Part shown: positions 1 to 29,622 of the stretch, one piece after another | How positions within the stretch are numbered: position 1 is the stretch's first letter | Layout of the letters: the number at the start of each line of letters is the position of its first letter | Assembly (NCBI RefSeq): GCF_023715505.1 | Contig: NZ_JAMBOH010000041.1 | Location: 1-31,501 of the forward strand | Origin: Neobacillus cucumis | Lineage (GTDB): Bacteria; Bacillota; Bacilli; Bacillales_B; DSM-18226 | Direction of reading: 5' to 3' | DNA: 31,501 nucleotides | Position numbers and translations under genes: made by a program | The notes under the pieces: model-generated | Told to the model about the DNA's origin: nothing | What the model saw: the letters and a program-made list of their open reading frames with translations, nothing else | The model's database searches: none

Positions 1-994
1 TTTCATATGAAGACGGTGCTGAGCCTTCCAAGCAATACGTTGTGCTTCAGGATCTTGACCTTCTTGCCGTTTAAGTAATTCACCTTTAAGAGAAGGTCGA
101 TGACGATAAGACCAACAGATTTCTACACATGGAACGCCGAACCTGAGAATTTCCCGTCTTAGTAATAGAACCTTGCCAACGATTTGATCCACTAGAGTAT
201 TCTTTAGGAACGAGTCCAGCATAGGACATCAGTTGTCTTGGGTTAGAAAAGCGAGAAAACTGTCCGATTTCAGCTACTAAAGTAACGGCAGTGACCTCTG
301 CGACACCTCTCAAAGTTTGAAGTGCTTGAATTACAAGTGCATGTTCACTTTGAAGAGCTTCTTCATGGATTTGAGCTTCGATTCGTTTCATACGATCTTC
401 AACTACATTGATTGCATGTAGGTATTCTTGAAAAACAATACGTTGGGAAGTTCTTTCAAATGTTAATCGTTTTAACCATTCGCGATGTTTGACAGACCAA
501 TTTCTAACCCCTTGAGGGGGACGTATTTCATGACGAAGTAAGAAGTGAACAAGTCTCTGACGAGAACTTTGTAAATCCTCACGAGCATCATGACGAGCAC
601 GAATTAAGTCTCTCAATGCTTCATGGTCTTCATCTGGAACCCAAACAGAAGTAAGCTCTCCAGCACGAAGTAGCTGAGCTAATCTAATTGCATCCCTTTT
701 GTCTGTTTTTACTCGATCTCCTGAACGCTTTGGAATAAGGGTAGGTGCTACAACCATACATTCTATGTCCATAGATAGAAGTAATCGGTAGATTCCGTAT
801 CCAGAAGATCCAGCTTCATAACAAACTAATAGATTTTTAGGATCGCCTAAACTTTTCATTAATTTGCGAATGTTTTCTGGTTTATTTGGTATGGTACCAT
901 GAAATCTAGGCTCTCCACGACCTGAATCAGCAATCGCAACAGCAATAGTATCTTTAGAGGCGTCTAAACCAACAAATTTTTGTACATCCTTCAT
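1..994 (-). pseudogene. IS110-family transposase, frameshifted and cut by the window edge
   Basis: DNA recombinase of the IS110 family. The N-terminal DEDD RuvC-like domain is visible: D11 in VGLDASKD, E60 in CYEAGSSG, and D98 and D101 in KTDKRDA. The C-terminal transposase_20 region includes the GSITKTGNSQVRR segment. That frame stops at 86 after an aberrant tail (RNLLVLSSSTFS). Reading one frame over from about position 127 to the window start restores the expected family C-terminus (WSYRHRP, then KRQEGQDPEAQRIAWKAQ), so a single extra base near 127 breaks the gene. The start at 994 has AAGGAG nine bases upstream. The true end lies outside the window. The frameshift is seen directly; whether it is programmed, mutational or a sequencing error cannot be decided here. 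Confidence 0.9.
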
Positions 995-1000
995 AATAAT

Positions 1001-1091
1001 CGGCTCCTTTTCGTGTGTAGCTCTACACTTGGTTTTGATTTGGGTAGTAACATTATGACCAAGTGCAACCTACGTTAAGCGATGGGAGCCG
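1001..1091 (-). other. structured leader upstream of the IS110 transposase (bridge RNA or RBS-masking hairpin candidate)
   Basis: On the minus strand CGGCTCC (1091-1085) can pair with GGAGCCG (1007-1001). Inside it CACTTGG (1065-1059) can pair with CCAAGTG (1032-1026), and GTGTAG-AG-CTACAC (1028-1015) forms another stem that competes with it for three bases. The right arm of the outer stem contains the ribosome binding site GGAG of the transposase. IS110-group elements are known to encode a bridge RNA in the non-coding end before the transposase, and other transposons hide their ribosome binding site against read-through. Both roles fit; neither is shown. Confidence 0.35.
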
Positions 1092-1375
1092 TTTCGTTCA
1101 TTATGACTAACGGGTGCATTTGTTTAAGAAGAATAATAATAACTATGGACATTAATTAGGGTTTCAAGTACTTCCAATATCGTTCTCCTGTAAAGGATCT
1201 TAGTGTTGTTAAGGGATGTACTTACAGTCTTAGTAACAGCGACAAATATGTAACGGAGATATTTATTCGATACACTCTCAGTTGTAGAGGAGCTTATTTG
1301 TTGGTCGTCATTATCAATTGAAAACAAGTTGGTGGGATAAATACTTTTAGGTTATGCGGGTTACTGACTATGAAA

Positions 1376-1453
1376 ATACCCCACCCCTGTCCCCAGAAAA
1401 CAAGATTATTCTTGATTCTAGGGACAGAGGAAGTAGTATTTATCATGGGGTAT
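1376..1453. repeat. nested inverted repeat
   Basis: Three nested complementary pairs are seen: ATACCCCA (1376-1383) with TGGGGTAT (1446-1453), CTGTCCC (1387-1393) with GGGACAG (1421-1427), and CAAG (1401-1404) with CTTG (1411-1414). The 3' side has a longer spacer, so the structure is asymmetric. There is no T-tract that would make it a normal terminator. It could be a small repeated extragenic hairpin or the remains of a mobile element. Confidence 0.45.
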
Positions 1454-1519
1454 ATACTTTAGTGCAAAGCTGGGAACCCGGATGATGCTGCTGTTTAATA
1501 CCTGAATTTCTTCACCTTG

Positions 1520-1708
1520 TCATTTGCTTTTAAAGCATATGCAGTTTCGCCCGCATATATCGTGACAAGCACCGTTGGCCGTAACCAATCGAAACTCCAC
1601 CGAACCGTTACTTGCAAGGAGCCGTTCCCGCTCCCTCTCCAGCAATCCGTTCCAAACAGCAGAAAGACCTTGACTAATGATTGCTAGTGCTGATTTTCTT
1701 TGTCGCAT
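1520..1708 (-). CDS. small hypothetical protein (62 aa)
   Basis: I do not recognise this protein. Its ATG lies nine bases after AGGTGA, an acceptable ribosome binding site, which also contains the stop codon of an upstream open stretch, so translational coupling is possible. The product has a basic start (MRQRKSALA) and a cysteine-rich tail (CHDICGRNCICFKSK) with no clear membrane segment. The tail could bind a metal or be chance. It lies in an accessory region between an IS110 element and an OLD nuclease and may be a gene remnant. Confidence 0.25.
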   Translation of the reverse strand: MRQRKSALAIISQGLSAVWNGLLERERERLLASNGSVEFRLVTANGACHDICGRNCICFKSK

Positions 1709-2053
1709 TGGCTCAGCTCACCTGACCTCTTTTTTAGCGTGACTTAAGGGCGCTCCCACGGCTATGTTTTTCTCCGGTTTCTCTTCTGTCGGAACCGGCA
1801 AGAGACGGCGTTTTTTTACAGAGGTTGCAGCTCTGACCCATTCGGGATTTAACTCTGTCGTAAATACAACCTTTTGAGAAATAAAGTACAAGATTTTATT
1901 AGAGCATTTTAATATCAATGAAATGTAATTGGAAAATAACAAAAGTAAAACTATTAATAACTCAAGATGAGAGGACCAAAAGGTTGCTTTTTAAATAAAA
2001 GGATATGATTTTTTGTAATAGATAGTAAAATACTGGATTAGGAGGTAATGTTT

Positions 2054-3865
2054 ATGAAACTAACAAATCTAACTATCAGAAATTTTAAAGGCATTAAGGA
2101 ACTAACTATAGACATAGAAAACATATCAATAATTATTGGCCCTAATAACTGTAGTAAGAGTACAGTATTAGAAGCATTGTGTAAGTTTGGATCCAGCGAC
2201 ACAATGCTGGAAAAAAACCTTTATCATAGACACAACACTTCTAATCCAATTAGTTTTCATGCTACTTTTTCAGATTTAACAGAGGAAGAAATAAATCTTC
2301 ATGGTATTAGAGCGTCGCTTCATGGACCAACCGGAAAGTTTATTGTAAGGGCGGTATATCGTTTGGGAGAAAAGGTAGAACGTGCATCAAAACTCTCAGG
2401 AAATGAGGAACACGACCTCGGAAGCGAAGGCTGGGATGGAAAAATGGGAGGGGGGAAAAATGGAACCCATTTTTTAAGCGCGTTTCCCGAGGTAATCTAC
2501 ATACCAGCGGTTAAAAATGCCAATGATGATATAAAAGATTCTTCTCCTTATATGAAAACCTTGTACGCTTTGTATAAAGATGTTATTCGAGGACTAGATG
2601 AATATAAAGAAGCTAAAGAGAAAACACAGCTATTACAAGATAAAATCAATTCACATGATAACGAAAAAATCAAATTCTTTGAGGAAGAGGTGCAAGGTTT
2701 CTTAAAAGAAGTTACTTCAACCAAAATTAGATTTAATGTGGACGTCAACCCGCTGGACGAAATAGTGAGTACTTCCTTAAAACCTAATTTTGACTTTAAT
2801 GGGCTAGAAACTATGCTGTCGCACCAGGGTAATGGAGTGCAACGGACATTTATGCTTTCGATACTTAAAGGGTTTAAGATGTACATGAAAAAATACCAAG
2901 GAGAGGAGAAAGGAGTAAATCGCCCTTTAATAATTGCTATTGAAGAACCCGAGTTATATCTCCATCCTCATCTTGCAAGAGTTTTTAAGGAAACACTCTA
3001 TAGCCTGGCAGATGAGGGTTTCTTTCAAGTTTTGGCAACATCCCATTCACCAAATTTCATTGATTTAGCTAAGCCGCACAGGACATTAGCTAAGCTTTCG
3101 TTGAATGAGGATAAAAATGTTGTAGTTAGTCAGGTGAACTCGGATATTTATGGCTTACCGAGTCATGAAAAAGATAAATTTCAAGCATTATTAAGATTTA
3201 ACCCGTATGTTAATGAAATATTTTTTGCCAATAACGTAATTTTAGTTGAAGGCGATACCGAAGTTGTTGCATTAAAAATAATCGGTGAAAAGCTAGCTAG
3301 TAGTGGAGACTTGGATAGTGAAATTTACAATAGAACATCTGTGGTAAACTGTGCAGGGAAAGGCACAATGTATGTCGTATTGAACGTCCTCAATAACTTT
3401 GGAGTTCAATATACCTGCATACACGATTTCGATATGACTGAACGCAATAAAAAAGGAGAAATAAAGACAGTAGCAGCGCTTAAAAAGGTACTAACTTTAA
3501 ATCATAAAATTGAGAGGCTATGCGATATAAAAGGTAACAAAAAGTTTGTTTTTCAATATACATTTGAGGAAGAAATGCCGCCGGATTATGAAAAAGGAAG
3601 TTCCAAGTCGTTTGCTGCCTATGAATATCTACAGGGGAAAGAACTCCTTGAAATGCCTCAAAGGCTTTTGAATATCGTAAAATCAGCATATGGTATTCAG
3701 CTGCAACAGGAACTTGATCACAAAAACTCCACTGTTTTAGAGTATTATAATTGGGATAACTTGAATCAAGCCAAATCCGAATGGGTTCCGCCGGATGACT
3801 CAGAATTTATTATTGCTGTTTGGAAAGGGCTTGAAGAGCAAGAGCAACCTGAACCGGTTGTATAA
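2054..3865 (+). CDS. OLD-family ATP-dependent endonuclease (AAA ATPase + TOPRIM)
   Basis: Predicted ATP-binding DNA nuclease of the OLD (overcoming lysogenization defect) family, 603 aa. The ABC/SMC-like ATPase starts with the strand LTIRNFKGI and a Walker A at residues 29-37. Walker B is IAIEEPELYLHPH (E297, E298), followed by an H-loop in ATSHSPNF. The TOPRIM domain shows E399 in LVEGDTE and D458/D460 in HDFDMTE. Walker A reads GPNNCSKST, with serine at residue 34 where glycine is normal. The ATG at 2054 is preferred over 2048, because GGAGG lies eight bases before 2054 and only three before 2048. No UvrD-like GajB partner, reverse transcriptase or AriB-type gene follows, so it fits the stand-alone class 1 OLD rather than Gabija, OLD retron or PARIS. 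A phage-defence role is inferred from family and accessory context. Confidence 0.85.
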   Translation: MKLTNLTIRNFKGIKELTIDIENISIIIGPNNCSKSTVLEALCKFGSSDTMLEKNLYHRHNTSNPISFHATFSDLTEEEINLHGIRASLHGPTGKFIVRAVYRLGEKVERASKLSGNEEHDLGSEGWDGKMGGGKNGTHFLSAFPEVIYIPAVKNANDDIKDSSPYMKTLYALYKDVIRGLDEYKEAKEKTQLLQDKINSHDNEKIKFFEEEVQGFLKEVTSTKIRFNVDVNPLDEIVSTSLKPNFDFNGLETMLSHQGNGVQRTFMLSILKGFKMYMKKYQGEEKGVNRPLIIAIEEPELYLHPHLARVFKETLYSLADEGFFQVLATSHSPNFIDLAKPHRTLAKLSLNEDKNVVVSQVNSDIYGLPSHEKDKFQALLRFNPYVNEIFFANNVILVEGDTEVVALKIIGEKLASSGDLDSEIYNRTSVVNCAGKGTMYVVLNVLNNFGVQYTCIHDFDMTERNKKGEIKTVAALKKVLTLNHKIERLCDIKGNKKFVFQYTFEEEMPPDYEKGSSKSFAAYEYLQGKELLEMPQRLLNIVKSAYGIQLQQELDHKNSTVLEYYNWDNLNQAKSEWVPPDDSEFIIAVWKGLEEQEQPEPVV

Positions 3866-10735: not shown

Positions 10736-13063
10736 ATGAACCGGCCAATAAAAGATGATTCTTATCAAATAAGTATACAAAACATTGAACATTACTCACA
10801 CCATATCCGTTTAGGAATTGAGATTCTTCTTATTATAAGGGGAGAAATTGAGGTCACGGTCAATCAACATTCCTTCCAATTATCCGAAAATGATCTTCTG
10901 CTTATTAATGCCAATGATATACGCTCTATTAAGGGGAATAAGGAGAATGTGGTCTTATCGTTACAAATCCCCTTGGATCTAATCGAGCCGCATTATCCGA
11001 ATATTCATGAGTGCTATTTTAACTGCAATTCATCCAAAGAGGGTAACGGGCTGTATCTGCTTTTTGATCAAATTCGCCAACTAATGGCGAAAATTTTGAT
11101 TGCCTATTATCAAAAGCAGGATGGAAGTGAGATCGAGATTAACGGACTGATTTTTCAGTTAGTTACACTGTTGATTCGAAATTTTAAAACAACACACCTC
11201 GGGAGTCATCAATTCACCGAAATGAAGGATGAAAGAATTAGAGAACTCCTGGCTTTTATCGAAAGAAACTATCGCAAACCGATATCATTGGAGGAAATCG
11301 CCAAGCAGCAGTATTTGTCTCTTTATTATTTATCGCGTTACTTCAAGCAGGAAGTTGGGGTTAGTTTCTCCCAATATGTCAAAAATGTCCGTTTGAAATC
11401 AGCGGTTCATGAGCTCCTGTATACCGACCATAACATTCTTAAGATCTCGCTGAATAATGGTTTTCCCAATGTGAAGGCGTTTAATAAGGCTTTTAAAGAA
11501 ATGTACCAGCAAACGCCTACTGAATATCGCAGCCTTCATAAAGTGGAACCTATGGATGTCGAGGAAATGAAACATGAAACGGAACAATATACTTTACTGC
11601 AATCGCCAAATTTTTTAATGGAAATCAGCAAGTATATTTCAGGAAATGAGAAGAGCACTACGCTGATGGAACCGGCTGCTTCAGCCGTATATGTGGACCT
11701 GCCGCAGGAGCCCATTTTTATCAAAGAAAAAGCCTTAAAGGTACTGGTGATTGGGCAGCTGGAATATGCTTTGCATGAAGAGGTGCAGGCAGACTTAAAG
11801 TTAATTCAAGAGGAACTTGGATTTGACTATATCTATTTTACGAACCTTTTTTCGGACAGCTTTGCGATGACAACGCCCCTCTATCAAATCGGTGGGCAAT
11901 TTTATCAGATGGATGCCTTGTTCACCCGCTTTCAGCAATTAGGGTTGGTTCCTTTCATTCGCGTAGAAGTTGAAAAGAAAGTGGATAGCAGCTCTGAATA
12001 TCTTAAAAAGCTTGATGAATTCTTACAGCACAGTCTTAGTTATTTTGGCAGTGCCTTTGTAGGCAAATGGCGGTTTGAATTGGTTTTCTCGGAATGGGGT
12101 GAAACAGCAAAGAGCTTTTATCAAGATTTTTATGAAACTGTTAAAAGGTGGGCTTCTGCCGCAAAAGTGGGTCTTCATGTGCCGTTTTCTTTAGGAAAGG
12201 CTATACCCGGTCCTGCGGATGACTTTATAAACCAAATTTCCGATCGTTGCGAGCTGGTCTGCTTCACCTGCAATCCGAATGAAGAAGTGGATTTTACCGA
12301 TATGGATAATCTTACTTTTGAAGGAGTAAAAAATTATGTAAAGAAAGCTTGCAGCAGATTAAAGGAATGCTTATCGTCTGCGGGTTTGGAGAAGATTCCG
12401 ATTTTTCTTACGGATTGGAATACGCTATATGGAAATACGATGGATTTAAGCGGCACCTTTTTCCGTTCAGCCCTTATTTTTAAAGAAATGCTGGATGCGA
12501 TGAAGGAACTTTCCGGTTTGGGGTTTTGGATTGATACCCACTCGCTGGAAAAAAATAATCTGGATCAAGACCATATTGCCATGAATGGGATTGCTCTCCT
12601 TTATTATTATCAAATTAAACGCCCTGCTTATTTTAATTTCCAGCTGATGGAAAAAATGGCCCTAAGGATTTTAGCTGAAGGTGAGGATTTTGTCATGGCA
12701 ATGGGGGAAAGCGGCTATCAATTGGCCGTTTATAACCCCTCCTATATCAATCCTTCTTATTCGGTCGAGAGCTTCTTTTTGCAATCCATCACGAAGGAAA
12801 AGAAAGTCGTGATTTCGGGTCTGCCGCCTGGACGTTACCAAATTCGCAAGCACATTCTTGATCAAAATAACGGAGAATTTTATATAAACTGGATAAATTT
12901 GCAGCATCAGGATATTTACGACCAGGAGGTCATTTCTTTTATCAAGCAGGGAACCCGCCCTGATCTGCAAATTTATGAGGAAAAAGTGGAAGCAGAGCTT
13001 TATTTACAATCCACCCTGACCTTTAACGCTTTTCATCTCTTTGAAATTAAGCCATTAAGTTAA
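10736..13063 (+). CDS. AraC-family regulator with C-terminal GH39-like domain
   Basis: Transcription regulator, 775 aa. An N-terminal cupin-like segment (about 15-110) is followed by a double helix-turn-helix AraC DNA-binding domain (about 165-270: ISLEEIAKQQYLSLYYLSRY, ILKISLNNGFPNVKAFNKAF). Residues from about 310 resemble a GH39 beta-xylosidase-type barrel with a beta-rich tail. In catalytic GH39 the acid/base lies in an NEP motif and the nucleophile is glutamate; here the first site reads FSEWGE (E453) and the second reads LTDWNTLYG with aspartate (D560), about the family spacing apart. The domain is therefore probably a ligand sensor. The start follows GAGGTGA. It stands just upstream of kbl-tdh in the same direction and is the natural candidate to regulate them, though its ligand may be unrelated. 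Confidence 0.85.
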   Translation: MNRPIKDDSYQISIQNIEHYSHHIRLGIEILLIIRGEIEVTVNQHSFQLSENDLLLINANDIRSIKGNKENVVLSLQIPLDLIEPHYPNIHECYFNCNSSKEGNGLYLLFDQIRQLMAKILIAYYQKQDGSEIEINGLIFQLVTLLIRNFKTTHLGSHQFTEMKDERIRELLAFIERNYRKPISLEEIAKQQYLSLYYLSRYFKQEVGVSFSQYVKNVRLKSAVHELLYTDHNILKISLNNGFPNVKAFNKAFKEMYQQTPTEYRSLHKVEPMDVEEMKHETEQYTLLQSPNFLMEISKYISGNEKSTTLMEPAASAVYVDLPQEPIFIKEKALKVLVIGQLEYALHEEVQADLKLIQEELGFDYIYFTNLFSDSFAMTTPLYQIGGQFYQMDALFTRFQQLGLVPFIRVEVEKKVDSSSEYLKKLDEFLQHSLSYFGSAFVGKWRFELVFSEWGETAKSFYQDFYETVKRWASAAKVGLHVPFSLGKAIPGPADDFINQISDRCELVCFTCNPNEEVDFTDMDNLTFEGVKNYVKKACSRLKECLSSAGLEKIPIFLTDWNTLYGNTMDLSGTFFRSALIFKEMLDAMKELSGLGFWIDTHSLEKNNLDQDHIAMNGIALLYYYQIKRPAYFNFQLMEKMALRILAEGEDFVMAMGESGYQLAVYNPSYINPSYSVESFFLQSITKEKKVVISGLPPGRYQIRKHILDQNNGEFYINWINLQHQDIYDQEVISFIKQGTRPDLQIYEEKVEAELYLQSTLTFNAFHLFEIKPLS

Positions 13064-21367: not shown

Positions 21368-22855
21368 ATGTTTTTTAAAGAATCTACCACAATCTCTAAA
21401 AATTCAAACGAAAACCTAGAGAAACTAAAAGATGTTCTTTCCAACTGTGAAGATTTAAATATTTTTCCGTGGCAATATGGACCGGATTTAATGTATAACG
21501 CCTTCTCGGTTTATTTCGAGACATTGGTACAAGAAAAAAGCGTAAATTACATGAAAGAATCAATGCAGGATTTGGTACAACATGAAGTTGGTCCAGCAAC
21601 GATGATTAAACCGAAAGATGTCATAAAATTTTTCAGTCAGCATGGAATATCTAGTCAAAACGCTCTTCTTGTTGATAGCTTTGAGCAGGCGGTGGACAAC
21701 ATTTTACAAGGACACGTTGTCATTTTTTTTGATGGCTGGGACCAAGTGTTATCCTATGCTCAAGCAACCCAAATTAACACAAGGCAAGTCACTGAACCTG
21801 TCACGGAATCTGTGGTAAAAGGTCCGCGTGAAGGAACTGTCGAACAGCTACAAAGGAATATCGGGTTACTTCGAACACGATTACAGAACCCAAATTTTAA
21901 AATTGAAAAATTTAGAGCAGGAGGGGCTACCAAAACAGAGGTCGCCTTTGGCTATCTTGAGGGGAAAGTTGACACGGAAACGCTAGCAGAATTTAAAAAA
22001 AGGATCGAGGAGGCTAAAAAAGGAGACATTTTGGAAACTTCCTATATTGAGGAATTAATTGAGGATTCAACTTATTCGCCATTTCCCCAATATCGGTCTA
22101 CTGAACGTCCAGATGTAGCCATTTCTAGCTTATTAGAAGGGAAAATTATTGTAATGGTACAAGGTACCGGAACCATATTAATCTGCCCCGGATTATTAAC
22201 CGAATTCTTTCAAGCAAGCGAAGATTATTATCATCGTGTCGTGTTTTCATCATGTATTCGTCTGTTAAGAATTGCTGCGTTTTTTATAGCTCTATCATTA
22301 CCTAGTATTTATGTCGCATTAACCACATTTCATCCTGAACTCATACCAACCAACCTGTTAATGGCCATTCTTGATACTCGAGAAGGGCTCCCTTTTCCTG
22401 CTTTTGTTGAAGCAATCATCATGATTTTTTTCTTTGAATTACTCAGAGAAGCCGGCATACGTCTGCCAAGACCAGTTGGTTCGGCGGTAAGTATTGTTGG
22501 AGCATTAATAATTGGTGATGCCGCCATTACTGCTAACATTGCTTCCCCAATTATTGTTATTTTAGTGGCATTAACAGGTATTGCTTCTTTCTCTATGCCA
22601 CACTACAGCATCTCTATCAGTTTACGAATCCTTCAATTCCCTTTAATGATTTTAGCTGCTATTTTGGGGGGATTTGGAATTATGATCGGTTACCTGCTGA
22701 TAATGTTACATATTTCGCAGTTACGGTCACTAGGAACGCCGTACTTTAGTCCGCTGACTCCATTTAGACCGAAACAGTTACTTGATGTTTTAATTCGTGC
22801 ACCTCATAAAACATTGTGGGAAACTCCAAGAGTACGTGGTATGCGTAAGAATTAA
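21368..22855 (+). CDS. spore germination protein, GerA-type A subunit (GerKA/GerAA family)
   Basis: A subunit of a nutrient germinant receptor of the spore inner membrane, 495 aa. A large soluble N-terminal domain (about 1-280) holds family segments SVVKGPREGTVEQLQRNI, LLRTRLQNPNFK and YIEELIEDSTYSPFPQYRSTERPD. It is followed by four to six membrane segments (about 295-460) with LREAGIRLPRP and the tail FSPLTPFRP. The receptor binds germinants and triggers ion release. The start ATG lies after AAAGAGG. It is first in an operon with genes for C, small D and B subunits. The germinant is not predictable. Confidence 0.95.
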   Translation: MFFKESTTISKNSNENLEKLKDVLSNCEDLNIFPWQYGPDLMYNAFSVYFETLVQEKSVNYMKESMQDLVQHEVGPATMIKPKDVIKFFSQHGISSQNALLVDSFEQAVDNILQGHVVIFFDGWDQVLSYAQATQINTRQVTEPVTESVVKGPREGTVEQLQRNIGLLRTRLQNPNFKIEKFRAGGATKTEVAFGYLEGKVDTETLAEFKKRIEEAKKGDILETSYIEELIEDSTYSPFPQYRSTERPDVAISSLLEGKIIVMVQGTGTILICPGLLTEFFQASEDYYHRVVFSSCIRLLRIAAFFIALSLPSIYVALTTFHPELIPTNLLMAILDTREGLPFPAFVEAIIMIFFFELLREAGIRLPRPVGSAVSIVGALIIGDAAITANIASPIIVILVALTGIASFSMPHYSISISLRILQFPLMILAAILGGFGIMIGYLLIMLHISQLRSLGTPYFSPLTPFRPKQLLDVLIRAPHKTLWETPRVRGMRKN

Positions 22856-22879
22856 ATCACCTAAGGAAGATGGTAGACA

Positions 22880-24046
22880 ATGAATTCTATCTCCATGAAA
22901 GCTTTGCCTATTATGTTTTTATTACTATCTTTAACAGGTTGTTGGAATAGTAGGGAGTTAACGGATTTTGGCTTTATAATGGGGATTAGTTTAGATCAAA
23001 CAGAAGGTGGGGGCATTGAAATAAACGCACAAGTCTATTCACCTACAGAAACGACAGGAGGAATGGGCGGTGGGGAAAAATCCGCCTATACGAATATAAA
23101 AACAAAAAATGAAAGTGTTTTTGACGGAGTCCGTGACATCAATCGATACTTAGGACGTGTAGCCCGTTGGAGTCATATGCGTGTCATCTTAATTGGAGAA
23201 AAGTTTGCGAAGGAGCAGGATATCGGGGAGATTCTTGACTTTTTTAATCGTAATGAAGATGTCCGCCTCAATACCTTTGTTATTATCACGAATGGAAAAG
23301 CTGTTGACTATTTAACAGTAAAGCCGTTTATTGAACGAACAGTCAGTCAGCAATTACAAACGATTATTGAAAATTCAAACAAATATACAAGTAAGACCAT
23401 TAAAGCCAAAATGTTAGATATTGATGTGCAATTAAATAGTAAATCGAAAACAGCTACGATCCCATATTTTAAAATGAATGATGAAAAACCAAAAGCCCCC
23501 TACAGCAGCGGGGTGGCTATAATTAGTGAAGGAAGAATGGCAGAACACCTCCAACCGAGGGACGTACAACAAGTTCTTATGTTAATGAATGAGTTTAAAA
23601 GTGGAATTATTGAGTTTCCTTGTTTGGATGATGGGAGTCAAAAGACATTAAAAATGGAAACGCTTGAAACCTCCAAAATTAAAACAAAAATAAAGCCTAA
23701 TTTCTCCATGAAACCACCTGCTATTCACTTGTTTACTAAAATCGAAGGAACGATGGGTGAACTAAGATGTACTACAATAACCAATCTTGGAGAAGAAAAA
23801 AAGTTAGAAGATCATATAAAAAAAATAATCAAAAAGAATTTAGAATCAGTAATTGAGCGTATGCAGGAAGAGAAAGTGGATGTGTTGGGAATAGGGAATA
23901 AACTTTATCAACAAGACCCTGCCTTATGGAAAAGGTGGGAAAAGGAATGGGGTGACATTTTTGCCGACATACAATTTACCAGTGATGTTGAAGTAAATGT
24001 TAAAAGTACAGGCATGCCTATTGGCGAAAAAGTAACGGGGGAATAG
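22880..24046 (+). CDS. spore germination lipoprotein, Ger(x)C family
   Basis: C subunit of the germinant receptor, 388 aa, a lipoprotein on the outer face of the spore inner membrane. A signal peptide ends in the lipobox LSLTGC (cysteine at residue 21), followed by WNSRELTDFGFIMGISLDQ, the usual GerC start. The C-terminal part has ERMQEEKVDVLGIGNKLYQQ and WKRWEKEWGDIF, typical of the family. It begins 24 bases after the A-subunit stop, preceded by AAGGAAG. Confidence 0.95.
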   Translation: MNSISMKALPIMFLLLSLTGCWNSRELTDFGFIMGISLDQTEGGGIEINAQVYSPTETTGGMGGGEKSAYTNIKTKNESVFDGVRDINRYLGRVARWSHMRVILIGEKFAKEQDIGEILDFFNRNEDVRLNTFVIITNGKAVDYLTVKPFIERTVSQQLQTIIENSNKYTSKTIKAKMLDIDVQLNSKSKTATIPYFKMNDEKPKAPYSSGVAIISEGRMAEHLQPRDVQQVLMLMNEFKSGIIEFPCLDDGSQKTLKMETLETSKIKTKIKPNFSMKPPAIHLFTKIEGTMGELRCTTITNLGEEKKLEDHIKKIIKKNLESVIERMQEEKVDVLGIGNKLYQQDPALWKRWEKEWGDIFADIQFTSDVEVNVKSTGMPIGEKVTGE

Positions 24047-24048
24047 AC

Positions 24049-24291
24049 TTGGTTGAAAAAACTCTTGTTCTTGTGATCGTGAGCTTAGGTATTTTGGTTT
24101 ACGACGGTCCAAAATTAAAACAAACAAATCGTAGAGAACGTATCGTTTATGGGATATTGACGCTGCCCATCCTATACCTTAGTGTCATTTATGTGTTGGA
24201 TTTAGAATGGCCAACTTTAAATGACCCCGTTCAATTCCTTTTTTCAAAACCTGCCCATAAAATTGTCGAAGCTATAAAAGTAGCCATGTAG
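24049..24291 (+). CDS. small membrane protein, probable germinant receptor D subunit
   Basis: Protein of 80 aa with two hydrophobic segments (about 4-18 and 32-50) and a positively charged loop (KLKQTNRRER). It matches the size and topology of the small D subunits found in some ger operons, which modulate receptor activity. The start is TTG, two bases after the C-subunit stop, with GGGGGAA in the end of that gene as ribosome binding site. Position between the C and B subunit genes supports the assignment. Confidence 0.75.
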   Translation: MVEKTLVLVIVSLGILVYDGPKLKQTNRRERIVYGILTLPILYLSVIYVLDLEWPTLNDPVQFLFSKPAHKIVEAIKVAM

Positions 24292-24318
24292 CTGAATAGA
24301 TAGTAAGGAGAGAGTGAA

Positions 24319-25434
24319 TTGAAGAAAAGGGAAACAATAAGTTCTGGACAAATGGCGTGTTTATTTCTCTCTTTTATGCTTGGATCATCCTATATTAACA
24401 TCCCGCAGCCTCTAACGTTAGCAGCAAATAATGGAGCGTGGCTATCAGTCATTATTGCCATTGTTTATGGATTAGTTTTATTGTCATGTATTTTATATTT
24501 GTATGGTAAAAATCCAAATTGGACTTTAATCGATTATAGCAGGAAAATACTTGGAAAGTGGATTACGCTATGTATTTGTATTCCGATCCTGTTCGTGCTT
24601 TTTTTAATTCTTTCTTATATTGTTATTGATATAGGGGGATTTTTCACTACAGCAATGATGACGGAAACACCGGATTACGTATTTCATACTTTAATATTGC
24701 TGGTCGCAGCATTAACGGCAAGAGCGGGTATTGAAGTAATGGCAAGAATGTTTATTTTACTTCTTTGCTATTCAATCTTTTTTGCATCCTTAGTACTATT
24801 ATTGAATGTTCCAAATTATCACTCAGGATATCTCCTGCCAGCTTTTCCAGCAGGGATGAAACCAGTTATTCATGGTACTTATTCCATAATCGGTTTCCCA
24901 TATGGTGAACTAGTCCTTTTTTCATTTTTATTTCCATTCGTAAATAAGGAAAAGGCCAAGTCATTAAAAAAATATATGTTTTCAGCTTTTATGCTTCAAG
25001 GTTTTTTTATCATTACTTCTATTCTTTGCACGATTATGGCTTTAGGACCACTCTCAGGTACATTTAAATTTTCACTTTTTGAATTGGCACGTTTGGTTAA
25101 TATCAAGGAAATTATTACAAGGATCGAGGCTTTCATTGGAATTGCTTTGATTGTTGGTTCCTATATGAAAGCATCGATCATGCTGTTTGTTTTAAAAGAG
25201 GCTCTATCAAGAATATTAAAATTAAAGGATGAACGGATTATTATCTTTCCTGTTACGTTTATATCCCTCCTCTTAACACTTACGATGTTCAAGTCAGAGA
25301 CGGAGCATTTTGAAGCGACATTTATTATTTGGCCATTAGTTATTAGCACCCTTGTCGTTCTTCCGTTGCTTTTTATTACGATCCTTGCATTTTTTAGAAG
25401 AGAGAAAATAGAAGAAAAGGGCGATAGCATATAA
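24319..25434 (+). CDS. spore germination protein, GerB-type permease subunit
   Basis: B subunit of the germinant receptor, an APC-superfamily-like membrane protein of 371 aa with about ten hydrophobic segments. It begins ETISSGQMACLFLSFMLGSS, as in the GerAB/GerKB endospore permease family, and has SIIGFPYGELVLFSFLFPF. This subunit carries the germinant-binding pocket in characterised receptors. The start is TTG at 24319 after AAGGAGAG. It closes the operon, giving the order A-C-D-B instead of the classic A-B-C. Confidence 0.93.
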   Translation: MKKRETISSGQMACLFLSFMLGSSYINIPQPLTLAANNGAWLSVIIAIVYGLVLLSCILYLYGKNPNWTLIDYSRKILGKWITLCICIPILFVLFLILSYIVIDIGGFFTTAMMTETPDYVFHTLILLVAALTARAGIEVMARMFILLLCYSIFFASLVLLLNVPNYHSGYLLPAFPAGMKPVIHGTYSIIGFPYGELVLFSFLFPFVNKEKAKSLKKYMFSAFMLQGFFIITSILCTIMALGPLSGTFKFSLFELARLVNIKEIITRIEAFIGIALIVGSYMKASIMLFVLKEALSRILKLKDERIIIFPVTFISLLLTLTMFKSETEHFEATFIIWPLVISTLVVLPLLFITILAFFRREKIEEKGDSI

Positions 25435-25480
25435 AAAGAAGAAGCCAAGGCTTTTTAAAAGCACTTGGCTTCTTCTTTTT
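25433..25480. terminator. strong terminator of the germination operon
   Basis: The arms 25433-25449 (ends GAAGCCAAG) and 25464-25480 (starts CTTGGCTTC) pair perfectly over 17 bases around a 14-base loop, with A-rich and T-rich outer ends. Confidence 0.9.
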
Positions 25481-25623
25481 ATGCACTAACTTCTAGGAAT
25501 AACTGCGTAATTTACCTAATATGAATGAGGGAGAAGGTTTCGATAATTATTCATATAGAACATAATCGCTTAAGGTCAGATCTTTATCATAGATAAGCAT
25601 CGATAAAGGGATGTGAGAAGTCA

Positions 25624-27081
25624 TTGACGAAAAATTGGATTCCGCCAACTCCTTTAGAAAAGATGGCCAATACCGAATACGATGTTTTAATTATTGGCAC
25701 TGGTGCAGGAGGTGGAGCAGCTACTTGGAGATTATGCGAACAATGGGGAAAAAATGAAAAAAAAGTAGGTGTGGTTGAATCCGGAGACTTTTTGCTCCCG
25801 ACACAAGCAGCCAACATTCCTACAATGAATAGTGAACGTATGAACAAACTTCATGAGTATATATCAAAACCATTAGGTAAATTTAATCCCGAATTTCAGG
25901 GGGCAAAACAAGTTTTTGCTTTTGGTGGAAGAACTTTATTTTGGAATGCCATCACCCCGCGGCTTAATCAGTTTGAACTTGCCCAATGGCCTGTCATGGT
26001 TCAAGAGATGGACTCCTATTATCGAATCGCAGAAAGGGTAATGAATGTATCAAGAGAATATACAAAGGATTCCCAAATCACAGAAATATTGCTGAATAGG
26101 TTGCAAAGGAAAGGACTAACAGAGGCTGCTCCTTCTCCTATAGCTGCGGAGCTTGGTCTAGGTATTTATGGACAGGAGGGTTCAGATGTATTTTTTGGCG
26201 CAATCGACTTCTTTACAAAAGCATTAAATCACCGTCGGTTCGATTTAACTGTTAAAACTAGGGCCGTTCAAGTACTAGTTGATCATGGAAAAGTAGTTGG
26301 CGTAAAGGTCATCTCTTCAGATAAAAAAACTTATATTTTAAAAGCAAAGACCGTTGTATTGTCCGCTAGTACATTTGAAACACCTCGATTGCTCCTTCAC
26401 TCGGGAATTCAAGGGCAAGCCATCGGTCATTATTTAATGAATCATTCTTTTGTGTTAGCTACAGGAACAATAAGCCGTGACAAGTTTCCGGATCCTTTAG
26501 GAACGTTAAGCATGTTAATTCCTTCAACAAAGGAAAGGCACTATCAAATCCAGCTAAGAGGACCCAATCGTTATTTTTGGTATCAGCCGTACCAGACAAA
26601 ATCATTTCATCAGGAACTAGATATCCACTTCCTTTGTTCTGGGGAGGTTGAACCTAGATTTGAAAACAAGATTACATTAGATTCCTATAGAACGGATGAA
26701 TTCGGGGTACCGGAGATTCAAATACATTTTTCCTTTAGCGAAAAGGATAAAGCTATCATTCGTGAAATCGCTGGAGCAATTGAACAGATCTCTTCCATTT
26801 GTGGTATAAATATGACTTCGAAAACGGGCCAGCATTCTATCTGTCTAATGCCGCCGGGTGATCAAAATCATGACTCTGGAACCTGTCGAATGGGTAATGA
26901 TCCATCCACTTCTGTAGTCAACAGGTATGGGCAAATACATGGTGTTAAGGGACTATATGTGGCTGATAATAGTGTCTTTCCGTCCATCGGTTCAGCAAAC
27001 CTGACACTTACGACTGTTGCCTTAGCCATTCGAACCGCAGATTATATTATCCATCAGGATCAGGAGAGTGTCTTTACATGA
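25624..27081 (+). CDS. GMC-family FAD oxidoreductase (probable sugar or glycoside oxidase/dehydrogenase)
   Basis: Flavoenzyme of 485 aa. The FAD Rossmann motif is DVLIIGTGAGGGAATW (about 20-35); the FAD-contacting FAFGGRTLFWNAITPR follows, and the C-terminal part has NHDSGTCRMGNDPSTSVV and GLYVADNSVFPSIGSAN with the usual GMC histidine and asparagine regions. The start is TTG at 25624: the segment WIPPTPLEKM after it is conserved in the paralogue downstream, so a later ATG (25663) is unlikely. It overlaps the next gene by four bases (ATGA). Unlike the paralogue it reads SANLTLTTV instead of ANPTLTTV near the active site. A sugar or polyol substrate is inferred from the neighbour's TIM-barrel domain. 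Confidence 0.85.
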   Translation: MTKNWIPPTPLEKMANTEYDVLIIGTGAGGGAATWRLCEQWGKNEKKVGVVESGDFLLPTQAANIPTMNSERMNKLHEYISKPLGKFNPEFQGAKQVFAFGGRTLFWNAITPRLNQFELAQWPVMVQEMDSYYRIAERVMNVSREYTKDSQITEILLNRLQRKGLTEAAPSPIAAELGLGIYGQEGSDVFFGAIDFFTKALNHRRFDLTVKTRAVQVLVDHGKVVGVKVISSDKKTYILKAKTVVLSASTFETPRLLLHSGIQGQAIGHYLMNHSFVLATGTISRDKFPDPLGTLSMLIPSTKERHYQIQLRGPNRYFWYQPYQTKSFHQELDIHFLCSGEVEPRFENKITLDSYRTDEFGVPEIQIHFSFSEKDKAIIREIAGAIEQISSICGINMTSKTGQHSICLMPPGDQNHDSGTCRMGNDPSTSVVNRYGQIHGVKGLYVADNSVFPSIGSANLTLTTVALAIRTADYIIHQDQESVFT

Positions 27082-29393
27082 TAAAATTAACAGCTTTTGG
27101 TGATGAAATTTCGCCCAATTTGGAAATTCAAATGGATACTTTGGCCTCCGAAGGGATTTATTATATTGATTTACGTGGTCTAGGGGGAAAAAATGTTTTA
27201 CAACTCAGTGAAGAAGAGATAGCAGAAGTAAAAAAAAGCCTGGATATCCGTGGTTTTTGCATTTCTTCAATCGCTTCACCGATAGGGGTTAATAGTATAA
27301 CAGATGATTTTACTCCACAGCTTAATGATATGATGCGGGCGATTGATTTAGCCAAATATTTTGGTACACCATATATTCGGATTCGCTCTTTTATCATTCC
27401 TAAAGGGGAAAATCCTTTAAAATATAGAGCTGAAGTTTTAAGACGAATAAAAGAGCTGACAAGTATCGCTGAGCAGAAAAGTGTCATTCTACTTCTTGAG
27501 AACGATACGACCATGTATGGGGATACTGGGGGACGCACTCTAGATATTCTTAAAAGTATCCATTCCACTAACCTTCGTTTTGCGTTTGATCCGGCTAATT
27601 TCTTACGTTCTTCAGTGTTGCCAATGACACAAGCCTATCCTCTTGTAGAGCCATATATTTCTTACATTCATATGAAGGATGCTCGAAAGGATACTGGAGA
27701 AGTGGTTCCGCCTGGAGAAGGTGACGCTGAAATCATAAAATTACTCACTACATTAAAAGAGAGAAACTATTCCGGATTTATATCGATTGAACCAAAGGGT
27801 AGGCCAGGTATCGCAGATCGGGATTTCTTCTTGGCTGCAGCAAAATCCTTAAAAAGGCTTTTAAATAAAATAGGATTAAAATGGGATGAACATCCCTATC
27901 AGGATACGTACAGCCATTTTTCTAATTCATCCGCCATTTTAAAGAAACATGCTCCTTTTCCCCCTGCTTGCCCTCAGGTGATCTCACCGGAAACTGTTGA
28001 TTCCTGGATTCCACTCACCCCGTTAGAAAAAATGGCACAAACAGATTATGATGTGTTGATCGTAGGGAGTGGAGCAGGAGGAGGGGCGGCCCTTTGGCGG
28101 CTTTGTGATCAATGGAGAAATAAAGGAAAACGAGTAGGTATGATAGAAGCAGGGGACCTATTGCTGCCAACACATGTTGATAATCTCGGATTACTCTCCC
28201 GCGAACGTGCAGCGCAATACATTACTTCAATAACAAAACCACTTGGAAAAACACTTCCAGAGTTTTCGGGTGCAAAACAAGTTTTTGCACTAGGGGGCCG
28301 GACTTTACAGTGGGCAGCCGCTAGTCCGCGAATTCCTTCATACCTTATTTCACAATGGCCTATCCCCAAAAATGAGCTGAATATTTATTACAAAATCGCG
28401 GAACAAGTCATGAATGTGAATGAAACCTTTTCCAAGTCCAGTTACCCCACCCGAGTCATTCTAAACCGCCTTTGGGCAAATGGATTTATTAATGCAACAA
28501 GTATTCCTTTTGCTGTCGACATTACACCTACAAAATATGGCGCGATCCATTCCAACACAGTATTTAGTTCCATCCACTTCCTTGCAGAGGCTTTAAATTA
28601 TAGGTCATTTGATCTGGCTGTTAAGGCTCGCGCTGTTCAATTGCTTATCGAAAAAGGGAAAACAACGGGAGTTAAGGTGATGTCTCCGGATTTGAAATCA
28701 TACTGGATTAAAGCAAAAACGATTGTTTTGTCGGCAAGTACTTTTGAAACACCACGCTTGCTCCTTCATTCGGGGATTTCGGGTCCAGCGATTGGCCACT
28801 TTCTTATAGATCATTCTGCTTTAGCTGCAAATCCAATAATCAACCGTAAATTGTTACCAGAGGATTTGGGGAGGATTGGTATTTTGATTCCAAATACGAA
28901 GGAAAATCCTTATCAAATCGAATTTGGCATACCTGATACACCGCTTCAAGATGGGGTAGAGATGATCTTCCATGGTTATGGAAATGTAGAACCACGATTT
29001 GAAAACATGCTCTATCTTGATCCCCATCGGCGAGACAAATATGGAGTACCAAAGATTCAGGTTCATTTCAATTTTAGTTATAGGGATCGAGTGGTCATTC
29101 AGCAATTAACTGCAGGAATGGAACGGGTTTTTTCGTCCTTAGGATTCATTGAAGGTCGGCCTGACATTTATATGCGTGCACCCGGGGATGATAATCATGA
29201 GTCAGGAACTTGCCGTATGGGGAATGATCCTTATACTTCGGCAGTTAATAGATTCGGTCAAATTCACGGCATATCAGGACTTTATGTAGCAGATAATAGT
29301 ATTTTACCGACTCTAGGTGCAAACCCTACACTTACAACCGTTGCATTGGCCATTCGTACGGCGGATTATATAATTCACAATACAAATAATTGA
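27078..29393 (+). CDS. fusion: sugar isomerase/epimerase-type TIM barrel + GMC oxidoreductase
   Basis: One open frame of 771 aa. Residues 1 to about 270 form an AP-endonuclease-2/xylose-isomerase-like barrel with a likely divalent metal site E141 (LLLENDT), D171 (FAFDPANF), H198 (YIHMKDA) and E238 (SIEPKG). A linker follows, then from about residue 308 a complete GMC oxidoreductase beginning SWIPLTPLEKM and DVLIVGSGAGGGAALW and ending NHESGTCRMG and GANPTLTTVALA. The GMC half closely resembles the preceding protein from its first residues, so the barrel was joined to an intact GMC start. Sugar 3-oxidation followed by epimerisation or elimination on a barrel enzyme is known in glycoside pathways, so a coupled oxidation and isomerisation of a sugar, inositol or glycoside is plausible. 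Translation is coupled by the ATGA overlap. Confidence 0.9.
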   Translation: MIKLTAFGDEISPNLEIQMDTLASEGIYYIDLRGLGGKNVLQLSEEEIAEVKKSLDIRGFCISSIASPIGVNSITDDFTPQLNDMMRAIDLAKYFGTPYIRIRSFIIPKGENPLKYRAEVLRRIKELTSIAEQKSVILLLENDTTMYGDTGGRTLDILKSIHSTNLRFAFDPANFLRSSVLPMTQAYPLVEPYISYIHMKDARKDTGEVVPPGEGDAEIIKLLTTLKERNYSGFISIEPKGRPGIADRDFFLAAAKSLKRLLNKIGLKWDEHPYQDTYSHFSNSSAILKKHAPFPPACPQVISPETVDSWIPLTPLEKMAQTDYDVLIVGSGAGGGAALWRLCDQWRNKGKRVGMIEAGDLLLPTHVDNLGLLSRERAAQYITSITKPLGKTLPEFSGAKQVFALGGRTLQWAAASPRIPSYLISQWPIPKNELNIYYKIAEQVMNVNETFSKSSYPTRVILNRLWANGFINATSIPFAVDITPTKYGAIHSNTVFSSIHFLAEALNYRSFDLAVKARAVQLLIEKGKTTGVKVMSPDLKSYWIKAKTIVLSASTFETPRLLLHSGISGPAIGHFLIDHSALAANPIINRKLLPEDLGRIGILIPNTKENPYQIEFGIPDTPLQDGVEMIFHGYGNVEPRFENMLYLDPHRRDKYGVPKIQVHFNFSYRDRVVIQQLTAGMERVFSSLGFIEGRPDIYMRAPGDDNHESGTCRMGNDPYTSAVNRFGQIHGISGLYVADNSILPTLGANPTLTTVALAIRTADYIIHNTNN

Positions 29394-29458
29394 AACTGTT
29401 TTCGAAGAGGTATCAGGAAGGGTCTTAAAGCGGACAATCAGAAGTTTTGCGCGCAAAG

Positions 29459-29491
29459 AAGCACAACCAGCTTAATGAGCTGGTTGTGCTT
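29459..29491 (+). terminator. terminator-like hairpin after the GMC fusion gene
   Basis: AAGCACAACCAGCT (29459-29472) pairs perfectly over 14 bases with AGCTGGTTGTGCTT (29478-29491) around TAATG. The T-tract is short. Confidence 0.7.
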
Positions 29492-29622
29492 TAGATGTTT
29501 CTAGGCAGAAGATCGAGATTTACAAGCAAAATGATTGCCAGAGAATCAAACTGAGAGTTATATAAAAAATTAGTATCTAGTTAGTATTAATAAAAAAGAT
29601 ACAGCAGCAATATGTAACGCCG

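Follow-up and report, generated by a model that had tools for sequence, protein, structure and literature searches.

The window analysed here, a 31,501-nucleotide contig of the spore-forming bacterium Neobacillus cucumis, carries two GMC oxidoreductase genes in tandem on the forward strand. The first (25624..27081, TTG start) encodes a protein of 485 amino acids (aa) with Pfam matches to GMC_oxred_C (1e-24) and GMC_oxred_N (4e-13); the second (27078..29393) encodes a 771-aa protein in which a TIM barrel of the AP_endonuc_2 family (residues 22-246, 2.1e-27) precedes a GMC oxidoreductase (GMC_oxred_N and GMC_oxred_C at 499-580 and 642-758). Both GMC domains exceed the Pfam cut-off in both proteins. 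An earlier sequence-only reading had described tandem genes with an ATGA overlap, and this is borne out: both open reading frames (ORFs) lie where it placed them, and the stop codon of one and the start codon of the other share the ATGA at 27078-27081.

Within the fusion, also on the forward strand, a barrel domain (residues 1-275, 27078..27902) is joined by a flexible linker (residues 276-307, 27903..27998) to the GMC half (residues 309-771, 28002..29390), which bears GSGAGGG at residues 330-336. In an AlphaFold 2 model of the whole chain both domains are confident (mean predicted local distance difference test, pLDDT, 89.2) and the linker has pLDDT below 50; the predicted template modelling score of 0.63 leaves the relative placement of the two halves unpredicted. 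The first half has the TIM-barrel fold as well as its AP_endonuc_2 domain, and the second has the fold of solved GMC pyranose oxidases and glycoside 3-oxidases. No signal peptide is evident by eye in the 771-aa protein. In one fused homologue (P0010; we number listed proteins P, loci L, and genomes G) the segment at the linker position aligns with the LysM-bearing start of P0018, and Pfam called no LysM in P0010 itself.

This fusion is not unique to the window. When 5.8 billion proteins were searched, with scoring confined to the 7998 candidates that had most words in common with the query, 273 matches resulted, of which 120 were listed. Twelve of these 120 contain both domains: the window's own protein and 11 others, which align to it along 97-100% of its length with 52-86% identity (the extreme N terminus is missing from P0013). 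Their source names, where given, are Neobacillus, Salipaludibacillus, Paenibacillus, and Bacillota, and the fused architecture is visible in database protein names. A scan of genome contigs with the single protein as query found nothing; with the barrel alignment as query, the best 80 of 284 loci were kept, of which 75 are unfused and five fused: Bacillus sp. OV166 (L001), P. alkaliterrae (L002), P. vietnamensis (L003), L005, and L006. Gene order in Bacillus sp. OV166 is identical to that of the window, and in the genome of P. vietnamensis the fusion is present four times. In the bacterial family to which L001 belongs, at least one of 193 genomes has the full fusion (up to five candidates scored per genome, E up to 1e-60), and in that of L003 at least two of 394 do (two candidates per genome, E up to 1e-150); it looks rare across both bacterial families, these counts being lower bounds.

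An assembly or frame artefact that joined two genes has next to no probability. The window is a single contig, and nothing further speaks for such an error; the same kind of junction lies in one open frame in other genomes and in metagenomes, and these homologues refute it. The barrel ahead of an intact GMC, with no sign of a frame error, is a real fusion, as had been read from the letters alone. The impression that the fused form and the two-GMC set stand apart holds in part: the fused form is real and the two-GMC set recurs, but related bacteria have ThuA-GMC fusions and adjacent, separate barrel and GMC genes. P0107 (Effusibacillus, 736 aa) is a ThuA-GMC fusion from the same GMC family, with ThuA instead of the barrel as its front domain. 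ThuA-Aldose_epim fusion genes lie beside GMC genes at L125:6988-8859 and L122:6855-8837.

The GMC parts of the 485-aa and 771-aa proteins share 53% identity over 475 columns. A tree of 83 GMC domains places them in different lineages, A and B. Clade A (support 97/96) contains the GMC half of the window fusion with the fused L001 and P0003-P0008, the unpaired P. vietnamensis copies L006 and L084, and also the free GMCs that accompany the fusions of L002 and L003; some of its fused members sit on long branches. Clade B (99/97) contains the window's unfused partner and the GMC halves of the fusions L002, L003, and P0011. The GMC halves of the fused P0010 and L005 lie outside both clades (92/92), again on long branches. 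At five paired loci an A-type GMC always accompanies a B-type GMC, and the barrel sits on A in Bacillus (window and L001) and on B in Paenibacillus (L002 and L003) and in P0011, whose pairing with the A-type GMC P0020 we infer from the listing of both on contigs of 9399 bp.

Approximately unbiased (AU) tests on a reduced set of 33 rows, with groups chosen once the first tree had been seen, reject a single origin of the fused GMCs: forcing them into one clade costs 180-437 log units (three selections), and forcing the partner GMCs into one clade costs 162 (P of 0.0003 or less in each case). Trees and AU tests also reject a local tandem duplication, lineages A and B being older. The sequence-only reading had taken the two GMCs for local duplicates and the shared WIP.TPLEKM segment for a sign that the barrel was added to a duplicated gene; neither idea survives, and the segment typifies the GMC family at large (of the 83 rows, 73 have W310 and 76 have P312, with six gaps at each position).

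The barrels of the fusion type form one set of 25 rows (Shimodaira-Hasegawa-like approximate likelihood ratio test 100, quick tree), 19 of them fused and six not; some of these six may be contig-end or frame-broken pieces (P0130 and P0126, judged by eye). At least five changes between the fused and unfused states are forced in the barrel tree. In that tree L005 and P0013, a match to L084, have sister barrels, though their GMC halves lie apart. An unfused barrel (P0122), a B-type GMC with a LysM-like start (P0086), and an A-type GMC (P0019) are each listed on a 9066-bp contig and, judged from these equal lengths, look like an unfused three-gene form. The simplest account would be a gene set of barrel, B, and A, with two or more separate fusions of the barrel; an exchange by recombination would look the same as repeated fusion. 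That relatives have the same kind of barrel welded to the other of the two oxidases suggests that barrel and both oxidases function as a unit.

The GMC half retains the His/Asn pair of its family. H707 (29196..29198) and N749 (29322..29324), at positions that we take to be catalytic in GMC oxidases, align with the His and Asn of 8qve and 7qf8 and are conserved in 82 and 81 of the 83 family rows, respectively. The fused homologue P0008 has Trp at the position of the His, and its GMC half may be inactive.

Known systems offer partial parallels. We take 7qf8, 7qfd, and 7qva, from Pseudoarthrobacter siccitolerans, to be the PsG3Ox of PMC10646112. Together with CarA, 7dve, and DaCGO1 (8qve), they represent bacterial glycoside and C-glycoside 3-oxidases and pyranose oxidases, which share the GMC fold and the His/Asn pair with the proteins described here; ours differ in being only 24-25% identical in structure alignments, in the fused barrel, and in the second GMC. 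In the passages available from the cited papers, GMC or Gfo/Idh/MocA enzymes oxidise the sugar, and metal-dependent barrels resembling sugar isomerases, as separate proteins, carry out the cleavage (PMC8563793, PMC10628242, PMC7676230, PMC10646112). In CarA and the C-deglycosylation complexes, oxidation at the sugar C3 is followed by the action of such a barrel, as we suppose here, but in separate proteins, and there the alpha TIM barrel works with a beta-sandwich subunit (PMC8563793, PMC10646112). No gene for a beta-sandwich partner was recognised by Pfam among the 19 window ORFs of at least 150 aa. Chains named C-deglycosylation subunit are absent from the barrel sequence matches and the listed fold rows, although the two may be related, and the barrel profile meets the "xylose isomerase-like" chain 8qvc at E 0.74.

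The beta-eliminase AtOGE (PMC10628242) and AtHYD, a hydratase by its title (8ro4), resemble the fused barrel in fold and in the logic of a metal site serving 3-keto-glycosides or their products. AtOGE has a catalytic His134, situated, as in PuCGE, two residues after the first ligand, and is encoded by separate genes (PMC10628242). The levoglucosan pathway (LgdA/LgdB1/LgdB2/LgdC) likewise joins oxidation to elimination and hydration by "sugar phosphate isomerase" proteins, but starts with an NAD-dependent dehydrogenase instead of a GMC and again uses separate proteins (PMC7676230). YcjR (6wn6), by its title a 3-keto-D-glucoside 4-epimerase and a separate protein, has the fold in common at 16% identity. 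Ten bacterial pyranose oxidase homologues, including those of Paenibacillus alvei and Domibacillus aminovorans, have been expressed; the passages available give activity data for the Streptomyces enzyme only (PMC9659204). A term search of PMC10807413 found none of six words, Firmicutes and Paenibacillus among them.

We propose, with a probability of about one half, that the fusion is a two-module flavoenzyme that oxidises a glycoside to a keto-sugar, on which its barrel then acts, with the second GMC belonging to the same unit. The protein would probably be cytosolic. Its GMC half, using flavin adenine dinucleotide and His707/Asn749, would oxidise a hydroxyl group on the ring of a sugar or glycoside, C3 being the likeliest position, and pass the electrons to O2 or another acceptor. 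The keto-sugar would be handed across the flexible linker of ~32 residues to the metal-binding barrel on the same chain, which would most likely abstract the acidic proton beside the keto group, leading to beta-elimination, epimerisation, or isomerisation. The free partner, from the other GMC lineage, would contribute a different specificity or form a heteromer. The pathway of oxidation plus barrel chemistry suggested from the sequence alone is retained as the most likely logic. The GMC half has its His/Asn pair, the metal quartet is in place, and the two-GMC set recurs; a working isomerase is unproven. The feature is real and recurrent, and its two-enzyme logic is likely.

We compared the barrel in 19 fused rows with that of 117 unfused relatives outside the clade (P0009 and L006 are identical; P0113 and P0123 are cut by contig ends). 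By the family motif the first metal ligand is E141 (27498..27500), which is Glu in all 117 unfused rows and Glu, Asp, or Lys in 12, six, and one of the fused rows. D171 (27588..27590) and E238 (27789..27791) are present in every row of both sets, and H198 (27669..27671) in 16 of 19 fused and 116 of 117 unfused rows. The window has all four, so that the "complete" barrel of the sequence-only reading is right as to metal ligands, but other residues are replaced: instead of K71, F103, C154, and H240, which 117, 117, 114, and 117 of the 117 unfused rows possess, the window has V, R, T, and K.

Several observations weigh against the two-module enzyme. The fused barrels keep K71 in nine of 19 rows, H240 in five, and C154 in none. 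Even with Asp accepted at 141, four of the 19 lack a ligand: in one Lys takes the place of Glu141, and residue 198 is Ser in another and Gln in two. Position 143, which by its spacing from the first ligand would correspond to the catalytic His of AtOGE and PuCGE, is Asp or Glu (D143 in the window). Between the window and OV166, over aligned codons, the ratio of nonsynonymous to synonymous substitutions (dN/dS) is 0.34 in the barrel (95% range 0.21-0.53). The NCBIfam pyranose-oxidase equivalog TIGR02462 scores 92.1 and 85.4 bits against a cut-off of 544.9, far below it, so the case for oxidation at C3 and use of a glycoside is built on fold and a weak sequence relationship. The AP_endonuc_2 genes beside unfused GMCs at L093 and L118 belong to other subfamilies than the fused barrel, being labelled as its relatives at neither 1e-10 nor 1e-4, and among ORFs of at least 120 aa in up to 20 kb, no second GMC was found at L005, L006, or L138.

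An unlikely though serious alternative is that the fused barrel is a demoted domain, which has given up the ancestral reaction and binds substrate or product, stabilises the chain, or contacts the partner GMC, the GMC half being the only enzyme. It would explain why K71 and H240 occur together in all 117 unfused barrels and in only five of 19 fused ones, and why the strict E-D-H-E quartet is found in nine of 19 fused barrels versus 116 of 117 unfused ones. The dN/dS values fit as well: the barrel exceeds the GMC half (0.16, 0.11-0.23; bootstrap P = 0.007) and the partner (0.17, 0.12-0.24), and four pairs of unfused barrels give 0.07-0.14 (NG86 method, at larger distances). However, D171 and E238 are kept in 19 of 19 fused barrels and [ED]-D-H-E in 15, the window and L001 retain the full quartet, and the joining of the barrel to two or more GMC lineages suggests an activity of some use. 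The barrel's dN/dS is also clearly below 1, and its excess over the GMC half is partly due to a lower dS (0.25 vs. 0.41), the difference in dN being small (0.085 vs. 0.067). A ratio below 1 together with altered residues indicates that selection maintains the barrel but has released part of the ancestral site; a changed chemistry and a binding role would both fit, and both readings stand.

The neighbourhoods of barrel and GMC genes elsewhere point to keto-sugar metabolism of plant-derived glycosides. Among 77 parsed loci of the barrel family (72 unfused, five fused; L007, L047, and L067 were left out as unparsable), a gene of one AraC-type cluster lies within four ORFs at 40, and one of a Gfo/Idh/MocA cluster at 30 (one representative of each cluster was checked by Pfam). 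At L005 the fusion stands among PL11, GH2, and GH28 genes of pectin degradation with a solute-binding protein, and the fusions of L002 and L003 adjoin two-component genes. At L093 a barrel (Pfam), a GMC, and a Gfo/Idh/MocA-like gene (by eye) share one strand. Six Paenibacillaceae genomes (G548, G565, G532, G542, G223, and G567, chosen in list order after gerA- and ThuA-like neighbours had been seen at some of their GMC genes) hold 61 GMC matches, of which 20 have ThuA within 3 kb (0.7 expected) and 14 have AP_endonuc_2 (1.9 expected). None has both (hypergeometric P = 0.0016). The expected counts, here and for GerA below, take genes to be placed uniformly and disregard the fact that metabolic genes cluster, which makes P values based on them optimistic. 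GMC matches number 19 in G548, 22 in G565, and one in G567; matches to the fusion profile, fragments and barrels included, number 41 in G003 and 25 in G002.

Germinant-receptor genes of the GerA, GerC, and GerB types (21368..25434, same strand; Pfam) lie directly upstream of the GMC pair, as they do at L001. They are parted from it by a terminator-like hairpin that follows the gerB-like gene (25434..25482, -27.9 kcal/mol, z -7.2), recognised by eye and absent from the terminator scan list; the scan did find another 3' of the fusion gene (29458..29492, -26.3 kcal/mol, z -7.0). In folding energy none of 200 shuffles equals either hairpin; the counterpart of the upstream one in OV166 is weaker (-16.6 kcal/mol, z -2.2). 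With hairpins before and after it, the pair looks like its own two-gene unit despite the three ger genes directly upstream, and the intervening hairpin speaks against co-transcription with them. Matches to sigma-70-type promoters in the region are at shuffle level (27 vs. 27.3) and were not used.

Beyond the window, Ger-type genes occur at 10 of 20 fetched GMC loci (three pairs overlap), and at seven of the 20 the GMC immediately precedes gerA on the same strand. Ten of the 61 GMC matches lie within 5 kb of a GerA match versus 2.1 expected (P = 4e-5; by clusters 8/44, P = 7e-4). These counts, like the many listed family members with LysM and one LysM-GMC with a weak match to the SafA/ExsA spore-coat model (27.0 bits against a cut-off of 67.85), would suit a non-catabolic, spore-associated oxidase set, its GMC proteins made in or for the spore and a sugar processed at germination. 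We consider this doubtful, since the hairpin separates the ger genes from the GMC pair, Pfam finds no LysM in the window proteins, other fused loci adjoin two-component (L002 and L003) or pectin-degradation genes (L005), and the expected counts assume uniform gene placement. The germination link is a lead on the GMC family, not on the fusion itself. In Paenibacillaceae, GMC genes directly precede gerA-type genes at L121, L122, L124, L125, L127, L131, and L132 and are divergent from them at L134 and L136.

Oxidising a sugar and then letting a metal barrel act on the keto-sugar is a recently recognised route to glycoside cleavage or remodelling, for which the passages cited above describe separate proteins. 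A natural fusion with a reciprocal swap of partners shows which proteins belong together and offers one polypeptide for testing their coupling. It also draws attention to a GMC family that has many copies in some Paenibacillaceae, where it is associated with genes for ThuA, AP_endonuc_2, and germination; the titles and abstract openings listed yielded no description of this family, of such a fusion, or of a link between GMC enzymes and germination, which does not prove that none exists. As a long shot, the Bacillales might possess modular intracellular glycoside oxidases with interchangeable LysM, ThuA, and barrel fronts, the barrel on at least two GMC lineages and catalysing a new reaction, some tied to germinant-receptor operons, by which a sugar signal or glycoside is remodelled around sporulation or germination.

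Elsewhere in the window, a 775-aa protein (10736-13063) has AraC-type helix-turn-helix and ligand-binding domains linked to one of glycosyl hydrolase family 39. Near the left end (86-3865) lie an IS110-type transposase on the reverse strand and an AAA ATPase with an OLD-like TOPRIM domain.

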